64,000 bases of DNA from Platanthera guangdongensis (lineage: Eukaryota > Streptophyta > Magnoliopsida > Asparagales > Orchidaceae): NCBI GenBank assembly GCA_039583875.1, contig CM077151.1, positions 109,510,609 to 109,574,608 of the forward strand, given 5' to 3'. This document shows, in pieces, positions 15,961 to 39,260 of the stretch; the first letter of the stretch is position 1; each line of letters begins with the position of its first letter. The translations under genes and the position numbers were made by a program. A model generated the notes under the pieces. The model searched no databases and was not told where the DNA came from. It saw only the letters and a program-made list of their open reading frames with translations.

Positions 15961-16143
15961 ACATTCGGAAAAGTACACAAGTAAGCAACAAGATAGGAAC
16001 GCGCAGGTGCCTCAAACACAAAAATTTGCATTCCTATCATGGACATTCAGGAGTTCAAACGTATTACCGTGGTTCGCACAGACACGTGCTCGCCACCCCA
16101 CAAAATAAGTCGACCACAACTTAGAGAGGGAAAGACCAAGACA

Positions 16144-16155
16144 GCTCTGATACCA
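16144..16155 (-). other. Primer-binding site of C
   Basis: GCTCTGATACCA reads TGGTATCAGAGC on minus, 4 bp from the LTR terminus at 16160. It fixes orientation and identifies 16160-18777 as the 5' LTR. Confidence 0.9.
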
Positions 16156-16159
16156 AAAA

Positions 16160-18777
16160 TGTAACAACCCCATCCGTTCATATAATATATACTAGAAGGT
16201 CCGGCTGGGGCCCCACAGCATATACCACAAAACAGACGATGAAGCTACGGAGTGATACCAAAGTAGCGCAGTGCACCTACACATTGCATTCTTGCGGAAG
16301 CCTATACACTTGAACTCCTCTCTTGAATGTCCAACATATAAAACTCCACATTTTATAGAGTATAGGAATGTCTTACAACACATATAAATAGTTGGCCTTA
16401 TGGCCTTACAGGGCTTTCAAACAGTGGCCCAAACATTGGCACGCAGGCCGGACACATCAAAAGAAAACATAGTGTTTACATCCACATTAGCCTTCGAGGG
16501 CTAGCAGCGGCAGCAGCAAAAGCAGTAGGGACTGCAACCCTTATGCATTCCGCTCGCTTCTCCAGCACCTGCACAGGACATTCCACCCAAGGGTGGTAAA
16601 TAGAGGCAACGGTCAGCATTCAGCTGACCAAATTATAACGACCCTACCCCTTTCTCGGGGCAGCGGTAACCTTCCCTGCAGGCATAGCATATCACAAGCA
16701 TGTATATATTTATCATATAATGTGCTTTCACGCACACATGCCATCACAACCGTTAGCCACCCGGCCCAACGGTTCGTGCACTCAGGGCACATTCTTAGTG
16801 TACTGGCAAATCAGTTGCCCACCACCGTATTAGGGTCACAGCCCAACGGAAACTCACTTGAGCATTTACTCCATGGCGTGCAGCTGGAGTTTTATAGTCT
16901 TAGTGAACCGGGATTGGCCCGTAGCCCCCCATTGTATCACGGCACTTAGGCGTAAGACTATTGCTATGCGCTCCAACAGACCGCACCTACTGGTCTCACG
17001 TCGGACGGACATAACGCAGGTCGGATCCTCCACCCCTCGTTGCTCAAATCGCCTTGCCATCACCGAGTACGGCGTACTCGCGGCTAAATAAAGGCGCGGG
17101 TAGGTCTCACCGATCCTATTCTGGCATTCAAGCCTGGGCATAACTCTTACACCCATTCTCTCACAACATTAGCGGGTCTTTCCTAGGCACACCAGTACTT
17201 CCTGCTACTCACTTCGCAGGTGGATGCCGCAAATATTACAAATGTCAGGGGTCTTTCCTGGCTATCATGCCAGTACTTCCTGTTACTCGCTTCACAGATA
17301 CCACCTATGACATCAAGCATCACAAAGGGCCTTTCCTGGTCACATCAGTACTTCTTGTTACTCATTCACAGGTACGACCGAATAGCACAAGCAGCACAAT
17401 CATTATACGGGTATTTTCCTGGACCACCACTCCAGTACTTCCTGCTACTTCCTTTCACAGGTCTAACTCGTCGACTCCTAAACTACACGTTTCTCACGGA
17501 GTCTTCTCCGGTTCATATATACAACATCACCAATCCATACTAACCTGTCCAGATGGGCTTCACACAGCATGCCTATTCCGTACTCCATTTCTGGATCTAT
17601 ATGCCAACAAAGGGGATTCCATGAATCAACCCAAAGACTCCCAAAATCAGCCACCACTTGGTGGGGGAATCACAAACATATGCCAAAAAGGAAGCCTTCA
17701 CATGGCTAGGAAGAAAAGTCGTTACCCTTGAAGACCGCTTTGGTGCCATGAAGTTCCTAGCTGGCTAGGAAGAGCTTTTCCTCCGCAAAAATGGCCTCTG
17801 ATCTTAGCTTGACACTCTCAAGCTCCACCAGCAAGTAGCCCTTCTTCTTCTTCCTCTCCCTTTCTCTCTCTAAACTTTTAGAAAGATGAAGGCAATAACA
17901 AAATGAGAATACGTTCTCTATTATCGGCCTTAATGAAGTAGGAAAGAAGCTCAACCTTTAGATCTCAGCTGAAGGAAATGAACGGCCACGAAAAACCCGC
18001 AAAACTGCTTTTTGGGTCCGACATGCCCTGTGACACACCCGTGTCACAGGTGGCGTCTCTAAGCGGTGCACAAACCGCCTTATCCCAAAATAGGTCACGA
18101 CCACAGTACACGTCCGTGTCGGCCAAGTCACGCCCGTGACACGGGGCGTGTAACCCACTCGAGACCTACTCGAGATGACTTACTCGAGAGGAAACCAACT
18201 ACTCGAGTGGCAAGTGTCGACCTACTCGAGACAGCGGGACACGCCCTGTGACACGCCCGTGTTATAGGCTGTGTACCCCTTACTCCTACTCGAGATGCCT
18301 TACTCGAGAGGAAGCCAACTACTCGAGTACCCCTACACGAGAGCTAAGCGGAACACGCCATGTGACACGCCCGTGACTCAGGTCTGCGCTCGACAATCTG
18401 CGTTCGACGATCAGGCAGCGATCGTCGAGCTCGCCAGCGATCGTCGAGCTCACCAGGGATCAGCAAATAGCGCGTTCGACGATTTGCGCTCGACGATCAG
18501 CGCGTTCGACGATTTCCATTCGACGATCAGGCAGCGATCGTCGAGTTGGCCCAGCGCTCGACGATTGGCCCAGCGTTCGACGATATGTCAGCGCTCGACG
18601 ATTTCCATTCGACGATTTGCCAGCCAACGAAGCCTTTGCTAAATCGTCGAGCTCAATTCGTTGAACATAGAATTTCGTCGACCTGACGCCGAACCCGATC
18701 GGGGCACGCCCTGGGACACGCCCGTGTCCCAGGCCGTGTCACCCAAAATTTTGCCTGCTGAAAATTGTGTTGTTACA
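16160..18777 (-). mobile_element. C 5' LTR
   Basis: Same content as the 3' LTR, with U3 arrays at 18150-18740. CTCGAG sites here are somewhat better preserved, for example CTACTCGAGACAGCGG where the other LTR has CTCGAT. The terminus TGTTACA at 18771-18777 abuts the CTACA duplication. Confidence 0.9.
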
Positions 18778-18782
18778 CTACA

Positions 18783-19246
18783 TAACTCTTCCTAGACCTT
18801 AGGGGAAGCTATGGGGTCACCAAGGACCCGTTGGGTTCAACCCAAATGGCCAAGTTGACCTAAGTCAACTCTAACCTTAATTTGGGCAAAGTACCCTTCC
18901 TAAGGGCAGGTGGCCTCCAAAGTGTCAAGTCAACCATACACATCCCTACCTAGACCCTAGGGGAGCCCAATAGGTCACTAAAGACCCAATGATGGTAATA
19001 GAAAAGGTCAAAAAGACTAAGGTCAACCCAAGCTTATTTTGGGTCAACCTAGCCCAAATAGGCTAACCCAAGCTCAAGGCTCCTCATGTGGTTTCTTTAG
19101 GGAATAATGTGCATGGGTGGGCTGCAAATAGTTCTTCAAACTAAACAAGTCAATTTGGTGACTAGGAGAGAGGGTGAGCTCCATTTCCATGATAATGGAG
19201 GAGAGAGAAATGAGGAAGAAGAGGGAAGGAAGAGGTTCGGCCAAGG
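18783..19246 (+). mobile_element. B LTR1, second segment
   Basis: Continues B LTR1 after the C insertion and matches about 48159-48624 of LTR2. It ends GGCCAAGG at the D insertion. No gene is present. Confidence 0.9.
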
Positions 19247-19564
19247 TGTAACACCCCATATCCGTCGCATAGCATATAGCAGTAGGTTCGGCCGGGGCCC
19301 GACGCCATATACCACAGATAGACCGGGTGGTTACTCAATGGAAACCATTCAACCAATCCAACGTCCTATACAGAACATTCTAGCGGAAGCAATTTTATAA
19401 GTTGCAATTAAAAGAACCCAGCACCAAACATGAATGTCCACTAATACACCAAATACTGGCCTTAAGACCTTACAAAAGGTTTACTCATTTTACATGTTTT
19501 CCATACCACGGCACGCAGGCTGGTCATACATGAACAAAAGCAAGTAAAACACTCCAATTAGGCC
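19247..19564 (-). mobile_element. D 3' LTR, left segment
   Basis: Homologous to 39261-39603 of the 5' LTR. A short deletion relative to that copy (about 25 bp after CACCAAATA) is present. It ends at AGGCC, the target duplicated by E. Confidence 0.9.
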
Positions 19565-19706
19565 TGTTGGGTACATTGGTTAACTGTACCTGATTTGAAG
19601 AAGCCTCACCCAACTCAATGATAGACATCATAATGTATTTGATGTATGTTGAGTTTACTTGTGCAGGTTATGTAATCACTGGACTGAAGCAAAAAGTTTC
19701 TAAGTC

Positions 19707-20640
19707 CATGTGTCGATACCCAGAGGGAAAGTGTCGACACTTAAGAAGGCTTGTGTCGACACCCAGACAAGCAGTGTCGACACTTGGAGTCATTGTGTCG
19801 ACACCTGGGATGCAGAGTCGACACCAGACAGTAAGTGTCGACACTTGGAGCTGTGTCGACACTCAGTGAAGAAAAGTGCAGACAGAAAGTGTCGACACAA
19901 GGAGCTGTGTCGACACCCAGTGAAGCTGTGTCTACACCAGAAAATGTCGACACTTGGAGCTGTGTCGACACTCAGCAAAAGTCTGCAGAGACTAAGTTAA
20001 AGTGTCGACACTCAGAACAATGTGTCGACACTCAATAGAAGAGTCAGCACTTGAAGTAAGTGTCGACACCCAGCACAATGTGTCGACACACAACCAGAAG
20101 AGTCAACACATGAAGTAAGTGTCGACACCCAGCACAATGTGTCGACACTCAGCTAAAGACTCTACACTTGAAGAAAGTGTCGACACAAGGAGCTGTGTCG
20201 ACACTTAGCAAAGATCAGAAAGATCAACAAAATTATTCTAAGTACAAGTGTCGACACTAAGGGAATGTGTCGACACTCAGCTGAAGTCTCAACAAGAAGA
20301 AGGTGTGTCGACACAAGGAGCTGTGTCGACACTCAGCAAGAATCAACATAGAAGACTATGTGTCGACACCAAGAAGCAGTGTCGACACTTAACAGATTCA
20401 ACACAAGAAGTTGTGTCGACACAAAGGTGATGTGTCGACACTTAGAAGAATACAGCTAAAGAAAGAAGATGAAGTACTTGTGTCGACACTGAATTTCAGT
20501 GTCGACACCTGAAGAAGAATCTGTGTCGAGACATACAAGGAGTTGTGTCGACACCTTGTAGACTTGTGTCGACACTTACACAACATGTGTCGACACTTGG
20601 ACTATAAGTGTCGACACTTAAAGACAGAAAGTCTCGACAC
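19707..20640 (+). promoter_or_regulatory. GTGTCGACAC palindrome array, E 5' LTR (31 perfect copies)
   Basis: A hand count gives 31 perfect copies of the 10-bp self-complementary GTGTCGACAC (first 19731, last 20608) and at least six one-mismatch copies (for example 19707, 19815, 19928, 19944, 20523, 20631). Steps cluster at 18-22 bp; larger gaps are near 36-40 or 48-53 bp and often hold a decayed copy. The array ends about 135 bp before the TATA box. Enhancer or silencing-target function is inferred. Confidence 0.9.
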
Positions 20641-20773
20641 TTTCAGAAAGTTAGAGATTTTCAAGAAATGACTGGATGACTTGACAGCTGCCGTTCCAGC
20701 CGGTCTACAGCACCTGTCAGAGATATCAGAAGTCAGTTATGGACCGGACCAGCCGGTTACCATGAAGAAGGCC

Positions 20774-20781
20774 TATAAATA
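20774..20781 (+). promoter_or_regulatory. TATA box of E 5' LTR
   Basis: TATAAATA in the context GGCCTATAAATAGGC, downstream of the palindrome array; the same box is at 31867-31874 in the 3' LTR. It predicts transcription start near 20805. Confidence 0.75.
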
Positions 20782-21289
20782 GGCACCTACAGTTTACAGA
20801 AATTGAAGTTTAAGAGTGATTCAGATTGTTGTTCAAGTGGATCACATTGTTGAAGAACAAGTTATTAAAGTGATACCAAGAGTATCAACACAAGAAGATC
20901 TTGCAGTCCAAGTGCAGATCTAAGAAGTTGGAGAGAGAGGGCTCCATCCAAGAAATCAGCCTCTGGAACTAGGCTGAGAAGAAGGATTCAGATACATTCT
21001 GGATCTTAAGTGGCAGAGGTCAAGGAACAACTGCAGGAGGATTCAGTCTTATTTAGTTCTACTCAAGAAGCTTTGAAGAAAGCTAAGTCAGATTGAATCC
21101 AGCTGAGTTCTTCCAAGAACTCATCAAGAAACTCTCAACTCCCCTCTTTTATTTCTGAGTTGTAGAGTTAATATCTGTAATACATTTTTAACTTGTAGGA
21201 TCCTTTGGATCTGAGTGAATTGTAAGCCTATAATTATAAAGGCTGAGGGTAGGGCTTGAGAGCCTGAGTGTAGGAGATTGAGATCTCTG

Positions 21290-21390
21290 AGTGTAGGCCT
21301 TGTTGGCTGAGTGTAGGCCTTGGTTGGCTGAGAGTAGGCCTTGGTTGGCTGAGTGTAGGCCTTGATTGGCTGAGTGTAGGCTTTGGGATA
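21290..21390 (+). repeat. Short tandem repeat in E R/U5
   Basis: Four copies of a 23-24 bp unit containing GGCTGAGTGTAGGCCTT (one with GAGAGTAGG) are arranged head to tail; the same block is at 32383-32483 in the 3' LTR. Confidence 0.8.
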
Positions 21391-21710
21391 AAGCTGAGTT
21401 GTAAGGCTTTGGGCCTGAGGTGTAGGAACCAATTTGGGTTCTGAGACAGTGGAGGAGTTTGGCCGAATCTAGTACACTGCTAGATAGGCGAAGGGGGAAA
21501 GTGGATGTACCCATATCTTGGGGAACCACTATAAACCACTGTGTATGCTGTGCTGTGCTGTGATTGTTGATGTGCATGCTGTGTGTTTGCTGTGATAAAA
21601 TAGTTAGTATTCTGTGATATAACTGATTGCTGCCATTTAAGTTTAAAAAGGATTAGGTCACCTATTCACCCCCCCCCCCCTCTAGGTGTTTAGGTAACAT
21701 ATCTTTCAAG

Positions 21711-21722
21711 TGGTATCAGAGG
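21711..21722 (+). other. Primer-binding site of E
   Basis: TGGTATCAGAGG, 2 bp after the LTR end at 21708. It is complementary to the 3' end of plant initiator Met-tRNA and shows plus orientation. Confidence 0.9.
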
Positions 21723-21822
21723 GAGGTTACTCAAAAAGGACTAACAATCTGAGGAGATCCTGTTTGGCAGATTCAGTGTAAGGCAAAACACAGATTCAAG
21801 AAATTCAAGAAAATCAAGAAAC

Positions 21823-23865
21823 ATGGGTTCCTATGAAAATCACAAGGAATTGGGTTCCATGAAATTGCCCATATGCAGAAAGGAGATCTTTGGGATCTGG
21901 AAGGAAAGAGTAAGGCTGTTTATGGAAGCCTCAGACCCTAGAATCTACATCACAGTAAAGGAAAGGCCTTATGTGCCCATGAAGATTTCAGTTTTAGATG
22001 CAAATCAGAGAACTCCAAAGGATTTCTCTGAGATGACTAAGGATGAGATTGTCCTAGCTACCATGGACAAGAGGGCACAAAACATTATAGTGAGTGCCAT
22101 AGATGATGCAATATTTCAGAATCTTATACACTGTAAGACAGCCAAGGAGATGTGGGACACTCTTATAGTGTATATGGAAGGATCTGAAGAAGTGAGACAA
22201 GATAGAAAATCCTTGCTAAATCAGGAGTATGAGAGCTTTAGACAAGGAAAAGGTGATAGCATAACTGAGTGCTACAAGAAGTTCTACAGAATAGTTAATG
22301 AACTCATGTCTTATGGAAGAGAGTTCAGTAACTATGAACTAAATGATAAGTTCCTAAGGTCCCTAACCAAAGATTGGGACACAAAGATCTGTGTCATTAG
22401 AGAAATGGCTAAGTTGGGGGAAATTCCTCCTCCTACACTGTTTGGCAAGTTATTGTCTTATGAAATGCAATTGACAGTGAGGAAAGAGGAGGAGAAGTCA
22501 ACAAGGACTGAGCACAAGGAAAGAACTGTTGCTTTCAAGACAGAAGTTCCCAGAAAGTGCAGGAATAAGTCATCAACTCCACCTCCAGAGGTAGTTGAAT
22601 CAGAATCAGATGAGTCAGTCAGCACAAAGACTGAGAGCAGTGAAAGTGATGAAGACTTTGCTGCCTTCACTAGACACTTTCAGAAATTCTTGAAGAAGAA
22701 ACAGTGGAGGTCAAGACCTTCTACTTCAAAGGGAAAGGAAGTCTTTTATCAGGAGAAAAAGCCTTCAAAGAAAGACAGGAAGAGGACAAAGTCAAGCAAG
22801 GCAACTGGATCTAAGATAGTGTGTTATTGCTGCAATAGACAGGGCCATGTTATTGCAGATTGTCCAGAGAAGAGAAAGGAATCTGGTGACAGGAAAAAGG
22901 CTCACTTTAAAGGCAAGAAAGAGAAGTCTTTTGTTGCCAAGAAAGAGAAGACTCTATTAGATATCTCTTCTTCAGAAACTGAGTCTGAGGCTGAAGCCTA
23001 CATAGGGCTGTTTGCTGAAGAAGAAGAAGAGGAAGAATTCATGCAGATCATGGAGTCTATTTATGAACAAGAAGACAGTCAATGCCAAGGGCTAATGGCT
23101 TTGACAGAGAGTGCCAAAATCCTGGAGCAGCCAGGACCCAGTAAGGTACAAGGTTCAAGTTCAAGTTCAGTTTCTTGTTCTAGTTCAGATTCAGATTCTT
23201 CTTCATCAAGTGATGAGAATGTATCTGAGTCTGAGGATGATATTCATCAGCTTATAGATGAATATAAGGTGATGTTGCAGGCTTACAAGAAAAGCAAGAC
23301 CCTAGCCAAAAGTCAGGCAAAGGAAATTGCTATTCTTAAAGCTGCAGCAACAGATTTTGAGAAGTCTTTTGATCAAAAACTGAATGAGATAGCCAGGTTG
23401 AAGCACATAACAGTGATTCAAATGGGTACTATATCATTTAAAAATGATCAAATCAAGAGTCTAGAGATCAATCTTTAGAAAGAGAGAGAGCTTGTTGCTA
23501 GGTTTTCTAAACCTAAGTCAGTGTTACCTTTAATCGATGAATTTGTTCATCATAAAGGCAAGGATGGACTGGGCTTTATTAGACCTGCAGGGACTGAGCA
23601 GTCCAAGTCTAAGTCCAAGGGCAAAGCCCCAAAATTCAACAAGCCTGCTGTAGACAAGTCAGCCAAGGCAGTACCTAAGCAAAGATACAACAAGTTTGAA
23701 TGTTGGTGCTATGGCAAAGTTGGCCATTTTGCAGTGGACTGTTGGCACAATGCTAGTGCCAAAGTGAGTACCAAACTACCTGTTGGAAAGCCAGTGGGTA
23801 GCTTTGTCAGATTGCAGACTAACAAGTACCAAGGACCCAAGAATTCTTTGGGTTCTAAGGTTCAT
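21823..23865 (+). pseudogene. gag: E gag, large, two zinc knuckles, one in-frame stop
   Basis: The ATG at 21823 opens 551 codons to a TAG at 23476-23478; the same frame continues without shift to the TAA at 23866-23868. Residues 1-220 are the copia Gag core (KEIFGIWKERVRLFMEASD, RDKFLRSL-type block observed as LNDKFLRSLTKDWDTK). A perfect CX2CX4HX4C knuckle, CYCCNRQGHVIADC, lies at residues 334-347. Acidic Ser/Glu-rich tracts and a predicted helical stretch follow. After the TAG, a second knuckle reads CWCYGKVGHFAVDC; F and G have CWCCGKVGH, so E has lost its second Cys. Gag forms the particle and binds RNA. Gag of this size with two knuckles fits Sireviruses. Confidence 0.9.
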
Positions 23866-26800
23866 TAATCTGTTTTGCAGGTGAGTCCAAGTGTTCATAC
23901 CCCAATACGGTACTTGGACAGTGGATGTTCCAGACATATGACTGGAACTAGAAGATTACTAAAGGACTACATTCCAGTAAAAGATGGTCCAAAAGTAACC
24001 TTTGGTGGTTCTGAAAAATGAATCATCAAAGGATTTGGTAACATTTCTACAAACTTAGTTACCATTACTCAAGTGGCTTATGTTAAAGGGTTGAAACACA
24101 ACCTAATAAGTATAAGTCAATTAAGTGATGTAGGGTATGACATCTCATTTGTCAAAAATGGTTGTCATATCAAGAGGTCAAGTGATCAAGAGATCATTTT
24201 GACAGGTTATAGGAAGAGGAATGTCTACTGCCTAGACATTATGGTTGAGAACAATGGTTCTCCAGTTTGTCTTGTAGCTGATGAGACAGTCTCTCATTGT
24301 GTCAAATGGCACAAGAGGCTTGCCCATCTTAACTACAAGACTATTAGCAAACTCTTTAGCAAAGAGTTAGTGAGGAATGGTCCTCAAGTTAAGTGTGTCA
24401 AAGATGGTATTTGCTCAGCTTGTCAAAAGGGCAAGCAGACTAAATCCACCTTTAGAAGCATAGAAAACAAAGATGCTGTGAGGTGTTTATACCTCTTGCA
24501 TATGGATCTCTTTGGTCCAATGCCAGTTCACAGCTTAGGTAGGAAGGTCTATACCTTTGTAGTTGTAGATGACTACTCAAGGTTTTCCTGGGTGTTCTTC
24601 TTAAGACAGAAATCTGAAACACCTAGTGTCTTCTATAGCTTTGTCAAGCAAATTCAAAATGAACTAAATAGTACAGTGGTCAAAATTAGAAGTGACCATG
24701 GTATTGAATTTCAGTCTGATAGCATGACAAAACTGTGTGAAGACTTTGGGATATTTCAAGAATTCTCTTCACCTAAAACACCTCAGCAAAATGGCATTGC
24801 TGAGAGGAAGAATAGAACCTTGATAGAGGCTGGTAGGACCCTATTAAGTGATACATCACTGCCAGAGTATTTCTGGGCTGAAGCAGTTAACACTGCATGT
24901 CATGTTATAAATAGGGCTACCATCACTAAAAGGCTAAACAAGACCCCCTATGAAGTTGTGAAAGGCAGGAAACCAAACATATCCTATTTTAGGATCTTTG
25001 GTTGTAAATGCTTCATACTTAACAATGGGAAGTCTTACTTAACTAAGTTTGCTGCCAAGTCCCAAGAGGGAATTTTTGTTGGGTACAGCAATAATAGTAA
25101 GGTTTATAGAGTCTACAACTTGACTACACAAGTTGTAGAAGAATCAGTGCATGTAGTTTTTGATGAGACTAAACTTATTAACAATGAGTTGTCTAGTAGT
25201 GTATGCAGCCCCACATGTTTAACAAAGAAAATGGACAAGCTAACTATAGAAGAAGTGCCTGCTGCAAGACAGCAAGTAGAAGACAGTAGCTGTTGTCCAG
25301 GGGGAGAACTACATGTGCCAATTGCTGAAGAAATCCAAGGTATACAGCATGATGCAGATGCTGAAGTGGTTCAACCAGAAGTTAGGATGCCTCCAGCCCA
25401 CAGGCATCTTAGAGATCATCCAGTAGAGCTGATTATTGGAGATCCAAGACAAGGAGTTCAAACCAGGAGTAGAAACATGAATGCAGCAATCTACTCCAGC
25501 TTTCTGTCACAAGTTGAACCTAAGAAGTTTGAAGAAGCAATACAAGATCCACAATGGACTGAAGCAATGCAAGAAGAGCTTAATCAGTTCAAGAGGTGCA
25601 AGGTCTGGGAACTTGTTCCTAAACCTAAAGACCACAATGTAATAGGAACTAAGTGGATCTACAGGAATAAGATGGATGAACAAGGGGTCATCATTAAGAA
25701 TAAGGCTAGACTGGTTGCTAAAGGATATAGGCAAGAAGAAGGTATTGATTTTGATCAAACCTTTGCTCCAGTAACCAGACTGGAAGCCATAAGAATGTTC
25801 TTGGCCTATGCAACCTATCAAGGATTCAAGGTATACCAAATGGATGTCAAGTCAGCATTCCTAAATGGTAATCTTAAAGAAGAAGTCTATGTGGAGCAGC
25901 CTTCAGGTTTTGTTGATCCAACTCTACCTCATCATGTCTATACACTTAGGAAAGCTTTATATGGGTTAAAGCAAGCCCCTAGGGCTTGGTATGAAACCCT
26001 ATCTAGTTTCCTCATTGAGAACAAGTTCTCAAAGGGGAAAATAGATAAGACTCTATTCCTTAGGGAATCTAGAGGCAAAGTTATACTAGTCCAAATATAT
26101 GTAGATGACATTATATTTGAGTCTACTGAAAGCAGCCTTTGCAAAAAGTTTGCAAAACTTATGCAAGGTTAGTTTGAGATGAGTAGTATGGGAGAGCTGA
26201 AGTTTTTCTTGGGTCTCCAAGTTAAACAGACTGAGAGTGGTTTATCCATTTGTCAGTCAAAGTTCACCCTAGAACTCATAAGGAAGTATGGTATGGATTC
26301 ATCCAGCACCATGAAGACTCCTATGGGGTCAAGTATGTCTCTTAGCAAGGATGATGCAGGGAAACATGTAGATGAAACCTTGTATAGAGGGATAGTTGGC
26401 TCCCTATTATACTTGACTGCTAGTAGACCTGACATCATGTATGCTACATGTGTTTGTGCTAGGTATCAAGCCTGCCCTAAAGAGTCTCATTTGACAGCAG
26501 TCAAAAGAATATTGAGATATCTAAAGGGCACTCCCTATCTAGGCCTCTGGTACCCTAGGAATGGAGATTTTGATCTAACAGGTTATTCAGATGCAGACTT
26601 TGCAGGATGCAAAGAGGATAGAAAGAGCACTACTGGAACCTGTCAATTCCTAGGTGGGAGACTAATTTCATGGAGTAGCAAGAAGCAAACCAGTGTGGCT
26701 ATCTCCACAGCAGAGTCAGAGTATGTAGCTGCAGGAAGTTGCTGTGCTCAACTTCTGTGGATACAACATCAGCTAGAGGACTATGGATTTCAGGTAAGTA

Positions 26801-27042
26801 GAACTCCACTTTTCTGTGATTCTACAAGTGCTATTTCAATAGCTAATAACCCTGTATCACATAGTAGAACTAAACATATTGAAATTAAATATCATTTTCT
26901 TAGGGAGCATGTAGAAAGAGAAGATATTTTACTTGAATATGTTAAAACTGATAATCAAATAGCTGATATGTTTACTAAGCCCCTAGAAGAAGCTAAGTTC
27001 AATAGATTCAAAATTGAACTAGGAATGTTAAACTTAGAGTAA
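23866..27042 (+). pseudogene. pol: E pol: protease, integrase, RT, RNase H; two further stops
   Basis: Pol lies in the same frame as gag. The protease signature LDSGCSRHMTGT starts at 23914. A TGA at 24019-24021 and a TAG at 26170-26172 interrupt it; there is no frameshift. Integrase has WHKRLAHLN with CSACQKGKQ (HHCC finger, 24307-24440) and DDE blocks [17 protein letters not shown] and [14 protein letters not shown] has [23 protein letters not shown] and IYVDDIIF with catalytic YVDD intact. RNase H has YSDADFAGC, SKKQTSVAISTAESEY and the TKHIEIKYHF end. Protease, integrase, RT, RNase H is the copia order. Each stop is a single-codon change, so decay is slight. Confidence 0.92.
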
Positions 27043-27069
27043 GTTTACAGATTTGAAAATGACTAAGTA

Positions 27070-27555
27070 AAAAGGTGTCGACACATAGACAAGTCTATGT
27101 CGACACAGAATAGTGGTGTCGACACTTCAGGAAAAAGGTGTCGACACATCTAGGAATGTGGTGTCGACACTTCAGAATGTTAGTGTCGACACATGTCCAG
27201 TAGGTGTCGACACATCCAATATGGTGTCGACACTTATGTTTTACTCAGAATTTTCTAAGTAAAGTCTCGACAATATGTCGAGTTATGTTGTGTCGACACA
27301 TAACCAAGTGTCGACACATAATATCTGTTGACTAAACTTGTGTCGACACATATGTGTCGAGACATTATAAGTCAGTGTCGACACTTATTGCCAGTGTCGA
27401 CACATTTTAAGTTAGCTGTCCCGCCTGTTCATCTTCAAAATTAGAAAGGTATAAATAGGGTTCTGTCTTTGTTTGTCGACACACTTTCAAAGTTTCGAGA
27501 CCAAAACTACTGTGTCGACACCTCTCTTTTCTAAAGACAAATTCTACAAACCCTA
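27070..27555 (+). promoter_or_regulatory. Internal GTGTCGACAC array and TATA box upstream of the 940-aa ORF
   Basis: Thirteen perfect GTGTCGACAC palindromes (27075, 27116, 27138, 27161, 27183, 27204, 27224, 27290, 27308, 27340, 27375, 27394, 27512) and several one-mismatch copies fill the gap between the pol stop and the ORF start. TATAAATA at 27450-27457 (context GGTATAAATAGGG) lies about 56 bp after the main cluster and 98 bp before the ATG. The order array, TATA, ORF repeats that of the LTR. This is probably an internal promoter for a subgenomic mRNA; that role is inference. Confidence 0.75.
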
Positions 27556-30378
27556 ATGGCACCTAAGCTTGAGGAGAACGTTAACGAAGGATATGAGCTT
27601 GTGCGCGGCGCGTTCGACGATGCTGATCCAGAAATCAAGGCAGTAGTAACCCTAGTCGCCGATTCAGGGTTAGAGTACTTAGTTTCAGAACCAACTAAGA
27701 TATGGAAGAAGGAGGTACTTGAATTCCTTAATCGAGCTGCAGTAGATGAATCTGGATACAAAATCAAATCCAGAGTTCATGGAGAAAAGGTTAAGGTAAC
27801 CCCAAAAAGTCTGAGGAAGATTCTTCAATTGCCAAGAACTCAAGATGAAGAAGAGGTGACTGCTTCAAAGACCAGGGAAGCTCTTACCTGGTGTGGACTT
27901 GATCCAAAGATGAAGATAGGTTCTGTTTTCAATAGAAAAGGCATGAATAATCAAGGAAAATTCATGTCAGAGATTGTTGGTAAGGTCTTACTCAGCAAGC
28001 CTGGAGGGCATGACAGAGTGTCTGCCCATATGTTTGGAATAATGATAAGAATTATCTTTACTCTAAGAACTGATTGGTCAGTGATAGTCTTTGAGAAAAT
28101 TAAAGAAAGTCTGAAGAAGCCCAATCTGGGCAGAATCTTAAGTCTCTACCTTGCTGGTGTGATACCAGAGGTAATGAGTTCTGCTGCAGGAAGTAAGATA
28201 AATCACATGAGGAAGATGGATCAAAGGATCTTTTCAAGATGGGACAGGGTGTTGTCCAAGGAGAATACAGTTACTAAGAAAGATACTCCCCCAAAGAAAA
28301 AGAGAAAAACTGCTCCAATGGCACAAGAGTCCTCCAGCAGTTCAGGGAGTGAAGAACATGTTGTTTTCACTCCTGATGATCAAGAGGAAGAGGCTGTAGT
28401 GAAATCTCCTGCTGCTCAAGAGGCTGCTGAGATCCAGGGGGAGCTGCCTGAAGCTAGCCCCATCCACAAGGATCACAGCCAGGGGGAGCCTCCAGTTGTA
28501 GAAGAACCCTCTATACTGGACAGTGAGCAAGCCACCACCATCAAACAAGAGGTACTCACTGAACTCAACACCTTAGATTTTATTATAGAAGATGCTGATC
28601 TGTCTGATGTTAATCAGCAAACTCAGCTGCCTAGTCAAGCTCCAGATGTTGTTATAAGAGACACATCTGCTGCTCCAGTTATTCCTGATCCTGTGGTTGA
28701 AGAACCAAGAATTTCTCCAGCTTCTTCACCCCCTGAATACACCATGGAAGATTTATTTCTAAATCTAGATCAAGCAGATTTTGACATGGACAAGGATGCT
28801 GATACAAGAGATAATGCTGCTGCTGAGGGGGAGAAGGTACAAGATCTGGAAGAGCCTTTTAGGCAGGAAACTGAGAAAGCACCTGAAGTGCAGAAAGAGA
28901 AGCCACAAAGCCCTAAGGATAGGGTTGACATAGCCAGCACTTCTGCCTCTGAAGATGAGGAGAGTGCTAGGGCAAAGAAGAAGAAATTGTATGTCTTTAA
29001 AAGGAGAAGTCAGAGTTATAAGAAAGCTCTGCAATCTATAGCCCCACAGCCTATAGTTCAACAAGCTCCAACTGTTGATTATAGTGCATTAATGATTGCA
29101 ATGCAGATTAAAATGGATGAACAAAGAAAAGCCATTGAGGCTTATGTTGATGCAGGGCACAGATCATTACAGTTTGATCTTGCCCAAGATATAGAGTCTA
29201 TAAGGTTTGAAATGAACCTTAACAAAAAGGAAATGACTGATTGCTTCCACAAAGGTGGAAATGCAGTGGTGTATTTGGCAACACACCAAGAGAAGATCAA
29301 GGCACAGGTGGATGATATAGCATTGAAACAAGGATATGTTCTTGAGAATCAATTAAGAATGAATGACAATTTGACTGCCTCCCATAATGTTATAGTCACT
29401 GAGTTGAAGAACAAGGCTGCTGAACCTTCTACATCTACTGCTGCTGCTAAAGCTGATTTTGATAAAGTATTCCAGGAAGAAATTTCTGCTGTAAAGACTG
29501 CTATCCAAGCCTCCCAGAAGGTCATATCTGAACAACTTCAAAAGCTAAAACCTTACTTTAAAGATGGAATCAGGTACTTGGATAGTCAGATCAGATTTCA
29601 AAAGGATGATGTCAGAGATCACATGGCTAGAGAAGTCATAAAGGGGGAGAGAGTGTTAGTCAAGGCAAGTTCTGATCATGCAAAATGGATATCAAATTCA
29701 ATCAGGGCTACACTTGGATACTCTCCTCTGTGTGATGACCAAGATGTTGCTGAATCAGGCATTAACCCTGCCTATCTTGGAGGTGAGCAACCAGAAGTAG
29801 CTCAGGTCATTTATCCACCTGCAGACTTTGAAATGATTCATGCTGAGGTACAGACCATGTACAGCCCATCTGGGGGCAAGGACAATGTTCATATTGAAAA
29901 GGTTGTTCAACCTATATCTGAAGCCATGCAAGAGGCTCTACAGAAAGAGGAAGAGACAAGGTTGTCCAAAAAGAGGTTTAGGGAACAAGCAAAACAAAGG
30001 CCAGACTTTGAACAGTGGAGCCCTACCTCTAGGAATATAATTTTAACTGCCTGGAAAGCTGCCAAGGACAATACTCATGACAGGAACAAGTGGTTCTCTG
30101 AAGCAGAATGGAGAAAACATGAGATCAGGCAGGAAGCAATAGTTCAGTATAGAAGGAAGGAAAAGATGGGAAAGCTACCTCCTACTGCAGTGGAGCCTAG
30201 CAAGTACTTTCCTAAGCCATATCACTATTTTGAGAGGCAGAAGATCAAAGCTGAAGAGCTTAAGAAGAATGACTTGAAAGGAAAGAAGCATGCTGATGCT
30301 GAAACTGCTGATGCCCCTGTCAAAGCTCAAGTTCGAGCTGGCAAGGGAATAGTTATCAAGGAACCTGACCAGAACTAG
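27556..30378 (+). CDS. E third ORF, 940 codons, post-pol protein of unknown function
   Basis: A single uninterrupted frame starts at the ATG in CTAATGGCACC and ends at TAG 30376-30378. Residues 1-235 look globular and resemble the plant-transposon-associated domain often found in post-pol ORFs (blocks KSLRKILQLPRT and RVSAHMFGIMIRII). PPKKKRK at 245-251 is a classical nuclear-localisation-type motif. Residues 255-470 are acidic and low in complexity, AKKKKLYVFKRR (473-484) is a second basic cluster, 500-730 is Lys/Glu/Gln-rich and probably coiled-coil, and the C-terminus is basic. I see no signal peptide or membrane segment, so an envelope role is not supported. It is intact although gag-pol has four stops. 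Function unknown. Confidence 0.8.
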   Translation: MAPKLEENVNEGYELVRGAFDDADPEIKAVVTLVADSGLEYLVSEPTKIWKKEVLEFLNRAAVDESGYKIKSRVHGEKVKVTPKSLRKILQLPRTQDEEEVTASKTREALTWCGLDPKMKIGSVFNRKGMNNQGKFMSEIVGKVLLSKPGGHDRVSAHMFGIMIRIIFTLRTDWSVIVFEKIKESLKKPNLGRILSLYLAGVIPEVMSSAAGSKINHMRKMDQRIFSRWDRVLSKENTVTKKDTPPKKKRKTAPMAQESSSSSGSEEHVVFTPDDQEEEAVVKSPAAQEAAEIQGELPEASPIHKDHSQGEPPVVEEPSILDSEQATTIKQEVLTELNTLDFIIEDADLSDVNQQTQLPSQAPDVVIRDTSAAPVIPDPVVEEPRISPASSPPEYTMEDLFLNLDQADFDMDKDADTRDNAAAEGEKVQDLEEPFRQETEKAPEVQKEKPQSPKDRVDIASTSASEDEESARAKKKKLYVFKRRSQSYKKALQSIAPQPIVQQAPTVDYSALMIAMQIKMDEQRKAIEAYVDAGHRSLQFDLAQDIESIRFEMNLNKKEMTDCFHKGGNAVVYLATHQEKIKAQVDDIALKQGYVLENQLRMNDNLTASHNVIVTELKNKAAEPSTSTAAAKADFDKVFQEEISAVKTAIQASQKVISEQLQKLKPYFKDGIRYLDSQIRFQKDDVRDHMAREVIKGERVLVKASSDHAKWISNSIRATLGYSPLCDDQDVAESGINPAYLGGEQPEVAQVIYPPADFEMIHAEVQTMYSPSGGKDNVHIEKVVQPISEAMQEALQKEEETRLSKKRFREQAKQRPDFEQWSPTSRNIILTAWKAAKDNTHDRNKWFSEAEWRKHEIRQEAIVQYRRKEKMGKLPPTAVEPSKYFPKPYHYFERQKIKAEELKKNDLKGKKHADAETADAPVKAQVRAGKGIVIKEPDQN

Positions 30379-30678
30379 ATTAAGAATTTACTTGAAGATT
30401 ATTTTGTAATCTGTTGAATGTAAAACATTTTTGTGAACTATTGGAAATGTATAAGACAAATGTTAGAACAATATATGATCAATATAATTCATGTTTGTTC
30501 TGTGAATATGTCTATTTCTTAATTGTTCTATGTTGATGTATGTGTATACATGTGTAATTTATACATGTTATGTTAACCCTGCTGTACTTTATTTTGCTTT
30601 ACATCACTTTGTAATTTTTAATTATAAATGGTGTATATCATTGACTAAGGGTTATGACTTCTCCAAATAGGGGGAGAT
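30379..30678 (+). other. E 3' untranslated region and polypurine tract
   Basis: AT-rich non-coding sequence after the third ORF. It ends in the purine tract AATAGGGGGAGAT (about 30666-30678), which primes plus-strand DNA directly before the 3' LTR at 30679. No gene is present. Confidence 0.85.
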
Positions 30679-32802
30679 TGTTGGGTATATTGGTTAACTG
30701 TACCTGATTTGAAGAAGCCTCACCCAACTCAATGATATACATCATAATGTATTTGATGTATGTTGAGTTTACTTGTGTAGGTTATGTAATCACTGGACTG
30801 AAGCAAAAGTTTCTAAGTCCATGTGTCGACACCCAGAGGGAAAGTGTCGACACTTAAGAAGGCTTGTGTCGACACCCAGACAAGCAGTGTCGACACTTGG
30901 AGTCATTGTGTCGACACCTGGGATGCAGAGTCGACACCAGACAGTAAGTGTCGACACTTGGAGCTGTGTCGACACTCAGTGAAGAAAAGTGCAGACAGAA
31001 AGTGTCGACACAAGGAGCTGTGTCGACACCCAATGAAGCTGTGTCTACACCAGAAAGTGTCGACACTTGGAGCTGTGTCGACACTCAGCAAAAGTCTGCA
31101 GAGACTAAGTTAAAGTGTCGACACTCAATAGAAGAGTCAGCACTTGAAGTAAGTGTCGACACCCAGCACAATGTGTCGACACACAACCAGAAGAGTCAAC
31201 ACATGAAGTAAGTGTCGACACCCAGCACAATGTGTCGACACTCAGCTAAAGACTCTACACTTGAAGAAAGTGTCGACACAAGGAGCTGTGTCGACACTTA
31301 GCAAAGATCAGAAAGATCAACAAAATTATTCTAAGTACAAGTGTCGACACTAAGGGAATGTGTCGACACTCAGCTGAAGTCTCAACAAGAAGAAGGTGTG
31401 TCGACACAAGGAGCTGTGTCGACACTCAGCAAGAATCAACATAGAAGACTATGTGTCGACACCAAGAAGCAGTGTCGACACTTAACAGATTCAACACAAG
31501 AAGTTGTGTCGACACAAAGGTGATGTGTCGACATTTAGAAGAATACAGCTAAAGAAAGAAGATGAAGTACTTGTGTCGACACTCAATTTCAGTGTCGACA
31601 CCTGAAGAAGAATCTGTGTCGAGACATACAAGGAGTTGTGTCGACACCTTGTAGACTTGTGTCGACACTTACACAACATGTGTCGACACTTGGACTATAA
31701 GTGTCGACACTTAAAGACAGAAAGTCTCGACACTTTCAGACAGTTAGAGATTTTCAAGAAATGACTGGATGACTTGACAGCTGCCGTTCCAGCCGGTCTA
31801 CAGCACCTGTCAGAGATATCAGAAGTCAGTTATGGACCGGACCAGCCGGTTACCATGAAGAAGGCCTATAAATAGGCACCTACAGTTTACAGAAATTGAA
31901 GTTTAAGAGTGATTCAGATTGTTGTTCAAGTGGATCACATTGTTGAAGAACAAGTTATTAAAGTGATACCAAGAGTATCAATACAAGAAGATCTTGCAGT
32001 CCAAGTGCAGATCTAAGAAGTTGGAGAGAGAGGGCTCCATCCAAGAAATCAGCCTCTGGAACTTGGCTGAGAAGAAGGATTCAGATACATTCTGGATCTT
32101 AAGTGGCAGAGGTCAAGGAACAACTGTAGGAGGATTCAGTCTTATTCAGTTCTACTCAAGAAGCTTTGAAGAAAGCTAAGTCAGATTGAATCCAGCTGAG
32201 TTCTTCCAAGAACTCATCAAGAAACTCTCAACTCCCCTCTTTTATTTCTGAGTTGTAGAGTTATTATCTGTAATACATTTTTAACTTGTAGGATCCTTTG
32301 GATCTGAGTGAATTGTAAGCCTATAATTATAAAGGCTGAGGGTAGGGCTTGAGAGCCTGAGTGTAGGAGATTGAGATCTCTGAGTGTAGGCCTTGTTGGC
32401 TGAGTGTAGGCCTTGGTTGGCTGAGAGTAGGCCTTGGTTGGCTGAGTGTAGGCCTTGATTGGCTGAGTGTAGGCTTTGGGATAAAGCTGAGTTGTAAGGC
32501 TTTGGGCCTGAGGTGTAGGAACCAATTTGGGTTCTGAGACAGTGGAGGAGTTTGGCCGAATCTAGTACACTGCTAGATAGGCGAAGGGGGAAAGTGGATG
32601 TACCCATATCTTGGGGAACCACTATAAACCACTGTGTATGTTGTGCTGTGCTGTGATTGTTGTTGTGCATGCTGTGTGTTTGCTGTGATAAAATAGTTAG
32701 TATTCTGTGATATAACTGATTGCTGCCATTTAAGTTTAAAAAGGATTAGGTCACCTATTCACCCCCCCCCCCCCTCTAGGTGTTTAGGTACCATATCTTT
32801 CA
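30679..32802 (+). mobile_element. E 3' LTR
   Basis: Copy of 19565-21708. It has 31 perfect GTGTCGACAC by hand count (30823 to 31701). Relative to the 5' LTR it has lost exactly one 20-bp unit at about 31125 and has regained perfect copies where the other LTR is mutated (30823, 31057). TATAAATA lies at 31867-31874 and the C-rich hairpin at 32752-32782. Confidence 0.95.
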
Positions 32803-32807
32803 AGGCC

Positions 32808-34636
32808 TTCGAGGGCCGGCTTCGCAATTTGGGCTTTAGCCCGCTATTGACCGCTTGGTCCGGCAGCACCTGCAAGCACAATCCACCACACAGTGGTAAA
32901 CAAAAGTAACGTTCAGCAATGCTGACCAAATTATAACGATCCCGCCCAAAAATCGGGGCGGCGATGCTCCTTCCCTGCATTTTATTAGCACAACCAAGCA
33001 GTAAATAAATACATTTCATCACAGGCATTGGCACGCACGACCACATGCCCCGTGCTCTCATGGCACATTCTCGGTGATCACAGTCTAAGTCTGCCGACTT
33101 ATCACCGTCCCCGGGATCGCAATCTCTCGTGAGCATTTGGTCTTTCTGGCCACTGCCTAAGACCCTCAATCTATGCCAATGGTAAGTGCCAAGTAACTTT
33201 AGGTCTCTTTAACCGAATGACATAGAGCGGGTACGGTTCTGCCTGACCCGTTGCTCACACCGCAACGTTAATTCAAAACATATGCGCGGGTCAAACTTTC
33301 CCGAGTCCCAAATCGTTTACACACAACACATAACCCAGTTATGTTCAAATTGGCTCCCAGGCCTACAGGTTTGGCAGAAACATGCATCTGCCCAGTTTTC
33401 CGGGTGCACCTTTGGGTTAATCCCCAAGGCACCCTGTTGTAATCTACCACGTAGAAAAACCCGAAAACAAACATTCGCACGGAGTCTTCTCCGGCATTTA
33501 TGCAATGCAACATCACCGATCCAGACCAACATGTCCGGATAGGCTTCACACATCATGTCTATATCCGTTCTCGATTACGGACTCTAAATAACGGGGACTT
33601 TACATATCTACCTGAAGGAACGCCTCCAACTCACCGCAGACTCGCGAGAGCGGGCTTCCTATGCAAAAGAAGTAGATCTTCACATGCTCAAGTAGAGAAT
33701 CGTTACCCTAGAGTTCTTCCTTGGCGCCATGGAAATGTAAGCGGATGAAAAGCACCGCACTCTCTTTGCCTCCGTAGATCCGAAGTCAGTTCGCGATTTG
33801 GAGCTCCGAAGCTCCTCCAAAGACCGGATCTAAGCTTCTTCTTCCTCCTTTGCTCTCCTCTCTCTAGACTTTAGAAAGAGAACCTCTCAAGTGAAATGAG
33901 GGTTTCAAGGGTCCAATCCCGTGTATATCCAAGCACTAACAGCCCCTGCCGTCGGATCCCGAATTAAAGAAGCGAACGGCCACGATCCAGATCTAAAATG
34001 CAGAATCTCGGCTGAACACGGCCTGTGACACGCCCGTGTCCACGGCTGTGTCCCTCATTCGCCGTCAAAATCGACGCGTCTCGAAAAACACACGGGCATC
34101 CGACACGCCCGTGTTCGACTTGACATGCCCGTGTTCCAACTTACACGGTCGTGTGGTTGGCCGTGTGCCCCCATCGACACAGCCCTGAAAACAACCCGAG
34201 ACTCACACGGGTTCTGGACACGCCCGTGTCCAATGTGACATACCCGTGTCACACCCAAACACGCCTGGGCTCCAGGCCGTGTTCACGGTCTCGACACTTT
34301 GTCGAGCGAAGTTCGTCGACCACATGACACGGCCTTGGACACGCCCGTGTCCTAGGCCGTGTGCCTTGTCTCGACACATCGTCGAGCGAAGATGTCGACT
34401 CCCCGGGCCGATCGTCAACACGGGCTCGACACGCCCTGAGATACGCCCGTGTCTCAGGCCGTGTTCACTGCTCGACGATCGTCGACTCCAAATTTTGTCG
34501 ACCTCGCGGCCAACTCGTTGACTCGAGCCTGACATGCCCTGGGACACGCCCGTGTCCCAGGCTGTGTGCCCCCTGCCAAATACCAGATTTGGCCCGAAAC
34601 GCCTCTCGTCGCTCTTTTGAGTTTCGGGGCCTTACA
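32808..34636 (-). mobile_element. D 3' LTR, right segment
   Basis: Resumes the D LTR after E and its AGGCC duplication, matching 39599-41433. The U3 part (34020-34570) has repeated ACACGCCCGTGT-type inverted motifs and TCGTCGA/TCGACGA motifs. It ends GGCCTTACA at 34636, followed by the purine tract. ORFs here recur in the other LTR and are not genes. Confidence 0.9.
34020..34570 (-). promoter_or_regulatory. D U3 array of ACACG-CC-CGTGT motifs (3' LTR copy)
   Basis: At least nine copies of (G)ACACGCCCGTGT or one-mismatch forms (for example GACATGCCCGTGT, GATACGCCCGTGT), each an inverted repeat ACACG/CGTGT with a 2-bp spacer, plus GGCCGTGT half-sites. The 5' LTR has the same array at about 40810-41360. 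In LTR orientation this is the start of U3. Confidence 0.75.
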
Positions 34637-34698
34637 ACTCTCCCCCTCTTAAAAGAATTTCGTCCTCGAAATTTACATAAAGGAAAGAAACATAAAAC

Positions 34699-35236
34699 TT
34701 AAATGGTACCTGAGTGAAACAACTCCGGGTACTCCTCAAGCGTAGTCTGCTCTCGTTCCCAAGAGAGCTCCTCTCGGCCGTAATTGTCCCAATGGATCTT
34801 GACCATCCTGATCTCTTTATTGCGTAGCCGCTTGACCTCCGAGTCCTCAATTCGCACGGGTTTGACCTTCGTCGTCAACCCACTATCAACAGGCACTTGA
34901 TCGACCGCGATCACTTGTGTAGGCTCTTGCACCGCCTTCCATAGTACCGATATACGGAATATCATGTAAACCACTAAGCTCCACCGAAAGCTTCAGCCGA
35001 TAGGCTGCTTCACCAACCCGCTCCAGAACCTCAAACGGACCAAGGTACCTCGGGCTTAGCTTTTTCAATCGCCGCACCCGCGAGACACCCTTGAACGGCT
35101 TGATCTTTAAGTACACCAAGTCTCCCACAGCGAACGCCACGTTCCTGTGCTTGGCATTATAGTACTTCGCCTGATGGTCCTGAGCGGTTAGCAACCTCTC
35201 CCGAATGGTTCGCGCCAATGAAGTAGCATCCTCCAC
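34699..35236 (-). pseudogene. D integrase C-terminus and chromodomain
   Basis: Frame 34886-35236 has the GPY/F region (FAVGDLVYLKIKPFKGVSR, LSPRYLGPFEVLERV). Frame 34699-34974, shifted, holds the linker and chromodomain (VKIHWDNYGREELSWERE, YPELF). The frameshift lies near LHDIPYIG, about 34960. Chromodomain aromatics are kept. Confidence 0.85.
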
Positions 35237-35248
35237 CTCTTGACGCTT

Positions 35249-36274
35249 CTACAACTTTGACTCACCCGTTTCCAACCAGGACAACGGCGTGCGACATCTT
35301 CTACCATAAAGGGCCTCAAAGGGCCCCATTTGAATACTCGCCTGGTAGCTATTGTTGTACGCGAATTCCACCAAATAAAGATGGTCTTCCCATTTCTTTC
35401 CAAAGTCCAAGACACACATGCGGAGCATGTCTTCCATAGTCCTATTGGCCCTCTCGGTTTGTCCATCTATTTGCGGATGAAAGGCTGTGCTGAATTTTCA
35501 CTTTGTTCCCAACATTTGCTGCACTAGCCTCCAATTATTGGACGTGAATCGCCCATCTCGGTCACTCACGATGCTGCGGGGCACACCGTGAAGCCGCGCT
35601 ATATTATCCACATATAGTTTTGGCAACTTCTCCACCGGATCATCCTTCCTATGCGGAATGAAATGTGACACCTTCGTTAGCCGATCTACGACCACCCAGA
35701 TGGCGTCGTTCCCCTTTTGCGACCTTGACAAACCGTGCACAAAGTCCATAGTGATGTCGTCGAATTTCCACTCCGGAATAGGCAAGGACTTCAGAAATCC
35801 TCCCGGCTTTTGGCACTCCGTATTCACCAAGGCGCAAGTTTGGCACTTTGCCACGTAGAGTGCCACATCCTTCTTCAAACCCGGCCACCAAAACAGTTTC
35901 TTAAATTCGCGGTACATTTTTGTGCTCCCCGGGTGAATCGAGTACTTGGTATGGTGCGCCTCGTACAACAAATCCACCCGCGGACTGCCCACGCTTGGGA
36001 CGCAAAGACGATTGTCTTTCCAAAGCAATCCGTCATCCACAACAAATTGGGAATTTGACCCATCCAGAGCCTATACCATGAACTGCTTCATATGGTCATC
36101 CAAATCCAAAGCCTGCTGAATCCGATCAGCCAGGTCATATTGACCTTCAGCCCAATTCAAGAGTGCTTCAGCACTTGACTGCTTATCTACACAAACAATC
36201 TCCAACTCCCGAACCAACCGCTCATCATGGATCGACAACCAATTGGCTTGAGTTGGGGCCCGACGACTCAACAC
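35249..36274 (-). pseudogene. D integrase N-terminus and catalytic core
   Basis: Frames 36071-36274 (linker), 35498-36040 and 35249-35437 together cover the integrase. The HHCC finger is complete: EAHHTKYSIH then KCQTCALV. The core shows ITMDFVHGL (first Asp) and SIVSDRDGRF (second Asp). The Glu block lies at the junction before MEDMLRMC, where the frame is broken near 35470-35500. The linking sequence after the RNase H has a stop near 36062. The catalytic core is otherwise well conserved. Confidence 0.85.
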
Positions 36275-36292
36275 ATTCGCAACCGCATTACC

Positions 36293-37036
36293 TCAACCAG
36301 GCACGTAGTGGATCTTGAATGTATAGTCCCCCAGGAACTCCATCCCTCTATGCTGATGCATATTCAGATCTTTTTGATCAAACAAATACTTCAGGCTCTT
36401 GTGATCGGTGTAGATATCAATCTTCACACCGTACAGATAATGCCTCCACAGCTTCAATGCAAAAATCACGGCCGCTAACTCCAAGTCACGGGCCGGATAA
36501 TTCCTCTCGTGCACTTTCAGCTGTCTCGAGCCATAAGCTATCACACTTCCATGTTGCAGTAGCACGCAACCCAAACCGCTGCCCGAAGCATCACTATAAA
36601 TCTCATAACCTTCGGTTCCACTCGGCGAACTCAACACAGGCACCGTGGTCAACCGACATTTCAACTCCTCAAAAGCTCGCGCGCACCCCGGCGTCCCAAC
36701 GAACTTCTGCTCCTTCCTCGTCGAAGTAGTGAGAGGTAACTCTATCCGTGAGAAGTTCTCTACGAAGCGCATATAATAGCCGGCAAGCCCCAGAATGCTC
36801 CGGACTTCCGCTACCATAGAAAGCTCAGGCCACTCCCGTATCGTAACAATCTTTGCCGGATCCACCGCAATACCTTCCCCACTCACTATAAGACCGAGGA
36901 ACGTCACTAAGGACAACCAAAACTCGCTTTTGGAGAACTTGACGTATAGTTGATTCCTCCTCAGCGTCTCCAACACCAAATGAAGACGCCTGAAGTGATC
37001 CTCCTCACTTTGCGAGTACACCAAAAATATTATCAA
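36293..37036 (-). pseudogene. D RT C-terminus and RNase H
   Basis: A 247-codon frame begins just after the RT active site ([14 protein letters not shown]), continues through the thumb ([36 protein letters not shown]) and the RNase H ([51 protein letters not shown]). It ends at HYVPG before a stop. It follows the RT fragment after a frameshift at about 37030. Confidence 0.88.
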
Positions 37037-37830: not shown

Positions 37831-38149
37831 CCTAACGATAGTAACGACACTTGTAAGTCAAAGTCTTGGCTCCCTGACCACACCTAAGCGCAATAGAATT
37901 TACCAGCGCGCATTCAGCACCATTGGACCAAGAGCATCCAATTTGTCACTTACCATCGAAGGAGGTACTCCTACACGTAATATAATTCCTAAATAAAGGA
38001 ATGCGAAGCTTCGTTTACACGAACGGTGCTCTCACCGGATAAATGAAAATCAGAAAAAAAAGCTTAGCACAAGTAGTTCTAAGTTAACACGCACAAGGGC
38101 GACAAGTATTTAAGGCTAAACTGCTATAACTTTAAACCATACCTGTCCT

Positions 38150-39257: not shown

Positions 39258-39260
39258 AAT

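Follow-up and report, generated by a model that had tools for sequence, protein, structure and literature searches.

The window, a 64-kb stretch of Platanthera guangdongensis DNA, contains a complete LTR retrotransposon of 13.2 kb at 19565-32802 that is, judged from its sequence, a Sirevirus-like member of Ty1/copia. Its parts are the following:

19560..19564 (left) and 32803-32807 (right), target-site duplication AGGCC of 5 bp, read by eye
19565..21708, + strand, 5' LTR of 2144 bp, aligned to the 3' LTR
21823..23478, + strand, gag ORF of 551 aa with Retrotran_gag_2 and a CCHC knuckle (the latter by eye)
24073..27042, + strand, pol (integrase, RT, RNase H) in two same-frame ORFs
27043..27555, + strand, gap of 513 bp from the pol stop to ORF3, proposed here as internal promoter plus 5' UTR
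27556..30378, + strand, ORF3 of 940 aa, an ORF in the ENV position
30669..30676, + strand, terminal polypurine tract AGGGGGAG, which begins 10 bp before the 3' LTR
30679..32802, + strand, 3' LTR with 31 exact palindromes and a TATA at 31867

The domain order is of the copia type (Retrotran_gag_2, gag_pre-integrs, rve, and RVT_2), with the integrase ahead of the RT, and the pol of this copy is broken by one in-frame stop at 26170-26172. The two LTRs differ by 17 substitutions over 2123 aligned positions. Several traits of Sireviruses are present: the LTR TATA lies near the middle of the LTR, ca. 1210 bp into its 2144 bp, and a poly-C run stands close to the end of each LTR. Both this poly-C signal and the 10 bp from the start of the terminal AGGGGGAG to the 3' LTR are as described for RM-box Sireviruses (PMC2829016), and 20 of the 30 divergent relatives described below keep the window's spacing from AGGGGGAG to TGTTGG. 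The primer binding site region (21714-21722, TATCAGAGG) matches eight of the nine positions of the Sirevirus 9-mer TATCAGAGC, of which there is no exact copy in the element. Absent is the Sirevirus trait of multiple AGGGGGAG in the linker, mostly after ENV, as only the terminal copy follows ORF3 in the window element and four others lie within it. Octamers of AGGGGGAG repeat at 21-bp steps within ORF3 of many relatives (L032-L061), so that the extra polypurine tracts sit in coding sequence.

The gap between pol and ORF3 shares its motifs with the LTR:

19731..20617, + strand, LTR array of 31 exact GTGTCGACAC
20774..20783, + strand, LTR TATA box TATAAATAGG
27075..27403, + strand, internal array of 12 exact GTGTCGACAC upstream of the internal TATA
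27450..27459, + strand, internal TATA box TATAAATAGG, kept across three families
27473..27521, + strand, three palindrome units 3' of the internal TATA (27473 with one mismatch, 27492 with two mismatches, 27512-27521 exact)
27075..27734, + strand, internal CpG island, ca. -480 to +180 relative to the ORF3 start, the rest of the internal region being nearly CpG-free

The palindrome GTGTCGACAC occurs exactly 75 times in the 64-kb window, for a shuffle expectation of 0.03, and its distribution is confined to the element, with 31 copies in the 5' LTR, 13 at 27075-27521, 31 in the 3' LTR, and none elsewhere in the window. This bears out the 13 perfect copies that an earlier sequence-only reading had placed between the pol stop and the 940-aa ORF. 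The same reading had described a TATA 98 bp before the ATG, following the array in the same order as in the LTR. The box is indeed there on the + strand (TATAAATA at 27450-27457, 98 bp ahead of the ORF3 ATG at 27556), and 12 of the 13 exact copies precede it; the order breaks down for one exact and two degenerate units that follow the TATA, whereas the LTR has no exact copy past its own. On the + strand of the window the 10-mer TATAAATAGG appears four times, in the two LTRs (20774 and 31867), in the gap (27450), and in pol (24906, taken as a chance occurrence), and on the - strand it does not appear. Among 2000 dinucleotide shuffles of the gap, TATAAATA turned up in 0.65% and TATAAATAGG in 0.05%. 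The base at +2 after the palindrome is T in all 13 gap copies, versus T12, C12, A6, and G1 among the 31 of the 5' LTR. The flanks do differ between gap and LTR as had been stated, and on these and the relatives described below the gap array was rejected as a recent copy of the LTR array. Neighboring exact palindromes of the gap are spaced 18-23 bp apart in 7 of 12 cases. A helical period of 10.5 bp was weakly supported for the part of the gap upstream of the TATA (Rayleigh p 0.062 for exact copies and 0.025 with one mismatch allowed), LTR spacing fitted 9.5 bp better than 10.5 bp, and with support this weak helical spacing was set aside as an argument. A GACCGG-N5-CCGGTT dyad lies 15 bp 5' of the LTR TATA (20742-20758 and 31835-31851), with a similar one in the LTR of the divergent family, and none of this type was found by eye in the 60 bp preceding the internal TATA.

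The distribution of CpG sets the same stretches apart. Leader, gag, and pol together (21709-27042, 5334 bp) hold two CpGs, with an observed/expected ratio of 0.01 for gag and pol, and the 3' linker holds none. ORF3 has 12 (ratio 0.10), of which 11 fall within its first 178 bp, outside palindromes (binomial p about 3e-12 for the clustering in the first 200 bp). In the gap, 18 of 20 CpGs sit in palindromes (allowing up to two mismatches), and those of the LTR are kept in the array up to the LTR TATA, with two more near the LTR end. The otherwise almost CpG-free element has two islands, one at the LTR array and one reaching from ca. -500 to ca. +200 around the start of ORF3. Both gag-pol and ORF3 show an excess of TG and CA, as expected from the deamination of methylated C. 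Other elements, measured over six stretches of the window and L031, have CpG ratios of 0.5-1.1, far above those of the focal leader, gag, and pol. Divergent relatives repeat the pattern in ORF3, where the first 200 of 2600 bp hold 200 of 271 CpGs; in pol, their ratio has a median of 0.04 but ranges from 0 to 1.09, so the pol parts of some are not CpG-poor. The two CpG-keeping stretches are read here as the two promoters, probably kept unmethylated in the germline, and the islands lend independent support to an internal promoter. CpG islands at the LTR and pre-ENV sites have already been reported for Sireviruses (PMC2829016). A CpG map of this kind may serve as a general finder of hidden promoters in retrotransposon lineages.

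To compare the gap among copies, we fetched 30 close copies (40 were scored of 2357 first-look candidates), one of which, L001, is the window's own, leaving 29 others. All 30 (29 of 29 without the window's own) carry exact TATAAATAGG ca. 105-110 bp before ORF3, and their gaps contain 12-13 exact palindromes each. Since these copies were chosen for their similarity to the gap, this conservation is weak evidence when taken alone. Evidence for constraint on the palindromes within this set is likewise weak: variable gap sites fell in palindromes at 12 of 130 positions versus 66 of 383 elsewhere (p 0.033), and variants located in palindromes made up 1 of 22 inherited versus 12 of 54 singleton variants (one-sided p 0.057). 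A telobox-like AAACCCTA before the ATG was considered as a conserved feature; it is present in 30 of 30 close copies but in only 2 of 29 divergent relatives, and for this reason no claim is made for it.

A more divergent family was retrieved with a P. zijinensis relative of ORF3 as the query (37 places scored of 147144 candidates, 30 fetched), that is, on ORF3 protein similarity and not on the TATA. Counts exclude L059, rearranged upstream (n = 29), and the profile of identity to the window also excludes L053 (n = 28). While the ORF3 of these relatives is on average 59% identical to that of the window (56-63%), exact TATAAATAGG was found in 27 of 29, at -109 in 23, -108 in two, -106 in one, and -70 in one, and the remaining two have a single TATA base changed (TATAAATAAG and TACAAATAGG). 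Exact palindromes number 2-10 in the gap of all 29 and 1-20 after ORF3, in or near the part of the LTR covered, and none lies inside ORF3. Identity to the window is 0.99 for the TATA and 0.88 and 0.91 for the palindrome units at -83 and -44, compared with 0.23 at 27460-27472, 0.47 at 27502-27511, and 0.54 at 27411-27440. The nine bases preceding the TATA (88%) and the eight preceding the ATG (77%) are also well kept, the five other spacers range from 23 to 68%, and the degenerate unit at 27492 aligns poorly (29%). In the LTR of this family, 25 of the 26 copies that could be aligned have TATATAA as their TATA and the remaining one has TATAAAA. The LTR box thus differs from the internal TATAAATAGG, which argues that the internal box is kept in its own right and did not arise as a copy of the LTR one.

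In a third family, for which P0011 was the query (106 places scored), all six fetched copies carry TATAAATAGG at -109/-110 together with 2-4 exact palindromes ahead of it. In P. zijinensis, the gene model P0005 has GINR...VDT...CVD in frame ahead of the ORF, like the window, letters that are consistent with GGTATAAATAGG and GTCGAC, i.e., with TATA and palindromes in that species too. The three families probably share one ancestor, so their copies are not independent. The sequence-only reading had named relatives with the ORF and without array and TATA as the case against its proposal; none of that kind appeared among the 29 divergent relatives, with their 27 exact boxes and 29 palindrome-bearing gaps, or among the six of the third family, which have both.

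ORF3 has a different history from its surroundings. Compared with the window, the gap of close copies is 97-100% identical and pol mostly 95-100% (three have rearranged pol parts), while ORF3 past its first 300 bp is mostly 80-95% identical; L002 and L006 remain at 98-100% throughout. On the 3' side, six close copies showed 88-93% in ORF3, 89-91% in the linker, and 94-97% in the LTR. Thus, ORF3 (27556-30378) and the 3' linker (to 30678) diverge more between close copies than pol, gap, or LTR, and, because synonymous changes make up ca. half of the shared differences in ORF3, their genealogy is older than that of the surroundings in most close copies. ORF3 alleles seem to have been swapped by recombination behind a uniform pol and promoter, as an exchangeable cassette. 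There are also signs of selection on ORF3 in its sequence: with all 30 loci counted, including five of low overall identity, on which this reading rests, nonsynonymous/synonymous counts were 164/197 for variants in at least three copies, 57/55 for those in two, and 235/80 for singletons, for a neutral expectation of 2.8. A stricter recount kept only 6 of the 30 loci because ORF3 is so divergent, and gave 62 synonymous singletons and 63 that were nonsynonymous or stop. ENV-like proteins are characterized by transmembrane and coiled-coil domains. In ORF3, the maximum hydropathy over 19 residues is 1.39, with no strongly hydrophobic segment, which does not suggest a transmembrane segment, and long helices are predicted at 509-620 and 628-695 in a low-confidence model (mean pLDDT 44).

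Taken together, we consider it likely that the gap serves ORF3 as an internal RNA polymerase II promoter. From TATAAATAGG at 27450, transcription would start near 27480, giving a 5' UTR of ca. 75 nt and a separate ORF3 mRNA that would end in the 3' LTR. The array upstream, with the two to three units just 3' of the TATA, would be the same cis-element as in the LTR, and through it a single DNA-binding factor, by default one encoded by the host, would activate both promoters. We infer the transcription start and the binding of a factor from the sequence, and the co-regulation of LTR and internal promoter from the shared palindrome only. The relatives' TATA and palindromes and the CpG footprint support, without proving, the internal promoter that had been proposed before the third ORF. 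Among the points against it, palindromes are also found 3' of the internal TATA, unlike in the LTR, and selection at the DNA level on binding sites, with no internal start, could also produce the CpG pattern. The conserved TATA, whose distance to the ORF hardly varies and which lies within one of the two CpG islands, provides a base-pair target for how ORF3 is switched on.

The main rival, and a serious one even if we regard it as unlikely, is that ORF3 is made from a spliced LTR transcript, either from a donor in the leader to an acceptor before ORF3 or by removal of a pol-to-gap intron, so that the array would be intronic and act otherwise. The sites that bear on it are:

26791..26799, + strand, splice-donor-like CAG/GTAAGT inside pol
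27535..27536, + strand, AG of the splice-acceptor-like site richest in pyrimidines ahead of ORF3

The pol donor, CAG/GTAAGT(A), comes close to a perfect match and is shared by 20 of 28 relatives and 26 of 30 close copies, although it doubles as coding sequence and its conservation may be at the protein level. To it can be added the pyrimidine-rich site at 27535 and a donor-like site in the leader at 21778. The P. zijinensis gene models P0005, P0007, and P0009 join pol to ORF3 with the gap wholly or mostly absent, but these joins are known only from the protein letters of annotated models. A spliced ENV-like mRNA is one route among plant retroelements, and for BAGY2 and Athila the acceptor sites have been predicted (PMC2829016). 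What splicing leaves unexplained is a TATA at a near-fixed distance from the ATG in three families and the CpGs kept 180 bp into ORF3.

Neither of these is predicted if the palindromes act as RNA or DNA structure, as hairpins feeding host small-RNA silencing or persisting through it, with no internal promoter; we hold this to be decidedly improbable as a full account. The array RNA folds better than 100 of 100 shuffles (z -13), but a perfect palindrome array folds well whatever its purpose, and neither the TATA itself nor the fact that the CpGs at the ORF3 start lie outside palindromes would follow. Palindromes of maize Sirevirus LTRs are small-RNA hotspots (PMC5311732, PMC10760457), and structure or small-RNA targeting of the array is compatible with a promoter and may well apply too. 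Compensatory pairing between the -83 and -44 palindromes was looked at by eye and not retained, as only L032 looked compensatory and several rows break the pairing. That LTR sequence was passively inserted into the linker as the array, with the TATA a chance match, has very little to recommend it: the palindrome is identical in LTR and gap and TATAAATAGG also occurs once in pol, but the flanks differ, array and TATA are common to three diverged families, and the divergent family's LTR TATA is unlike its internal one. The relatives contradict a chance TATA.

The promoter reading can be extended to a two-promoter program like that of complex retroviruses, in which a family-specific palindrome factor would keep both promoters unmethylated and the internal one would drive the exchangeable ORF3. 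In its boldest form, ORF3 would be, or recruit, the palindrome-binding activator in a Tas-like feedback; we find this extension quite doubtful. Foamy viruses (spumaretroviruses) likewise have two promoters per element, both answering one trans-acting factor, which is the virus-encoded Tas, whereas here the element is a plant Ty1/copia and the factor is putative. The internal promoter of foamy viruses sits within env. Against ORF3 as the activator, a family in the window that has no ORF3 also has an LTR palindrome array, of a different palindrome.

The layout itself is prior art. An internal promoter for the Sirevirus ENV was hypothesized in 2002 and indirectly supported in 2010, when Bousios et al. 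described, for nine ENV-carrying Sireviruses, palindromes both in the LTR and ahead of ENV and favored an internal promoter that they could not conclusively identify (PMC2829016). As in the RM-box ENV Sireviruses (Osr10, HOPIE, Barbara, Inga, Usier, Vitis, and others), many palindromes cluster in the LTR, 5' of a TATA, with a second group between pol and ENV, and CpG islands are found preferentially at the LTR and pre-ENV palindromes and also in the 5' part of ENV (PMC2829016). The window element and its relatives thus share the RM trait of palindromes in the LTR and, when ENV is present, before ENV. In contrast to 12 of the 13 RMs of that study, which have a CGG-CCG core (PMC2829016), the window's GTGTCGACAC has a TCGA core; also unlike those elements as described, an internal TATA is identified and conserved here, and the palindromes run past it. 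SIRE1 of soybean is likewise a Sirevirus with an ORF after pol, but its ENV-like ORF is separated from pol only by a stop codon and made by stop-codon suppression (PMC2829016), whereas here 513 bp of promoter-like sequence lie between them. In the portions of the literature searched (among them passages of PMC2829016, PMC3414828, PMC5311732, PMC10760457, PMC6696364, and PMC9023349), no mention of a conserved TATA ahead of a Sirevirus ENV was seen, and a literal search for GTGTCGACAC gave no plant-retrotransposon title among the matches listed. What appears to be new, from the sequences compared, is the conserved TATA at a near-fixed distance in three families, the near-complete CpG depletion isolating both putative promoters, the signs that ORF3 is under selection, and a palindrome that lacks the CGG-CCG core. 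The expression route of the Sirevirus ENV-position gene, a question since the hypothesis of 2002, now becomes directly testable.

The family without ORF3 is a second Sirevirus-like one, with copies at 52920-58244 and 58683-64000, the latter continuing into L031. Its LTR begins like the focal LTR (TGTTGGGTA, then TGTACCTGATTTGAAGAAGCC) and has an unrelated long palindrome array of the GAATCAC...GTGATTC type; the palindrome sequence thus turns over between families. In the one copy read to its end there is no ORF3: between pol and the 3' LTR lies a linker of 312 bp that carries four polypurine tracts (AGGGGGAG) but lacks half-sites of the family's own palindrome as well as GTCGACAC and TATAAA. 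The presence of a linker array therefore follows that of the ORF, in line with Bousios et al., whose four RM elements without ENV have no linker palindromes (PMC2829016). Elsewhere in the window there are GC-rich tandem arrays at 1129-3152 and 3400-3815, with units of 78 and 51 bp, and nested repeats at 8486-19246 and 32803-52568, probably LTR elements, with repeat pairs at 8998-11627/16159-18777 and 41434-45434/48618-52568.
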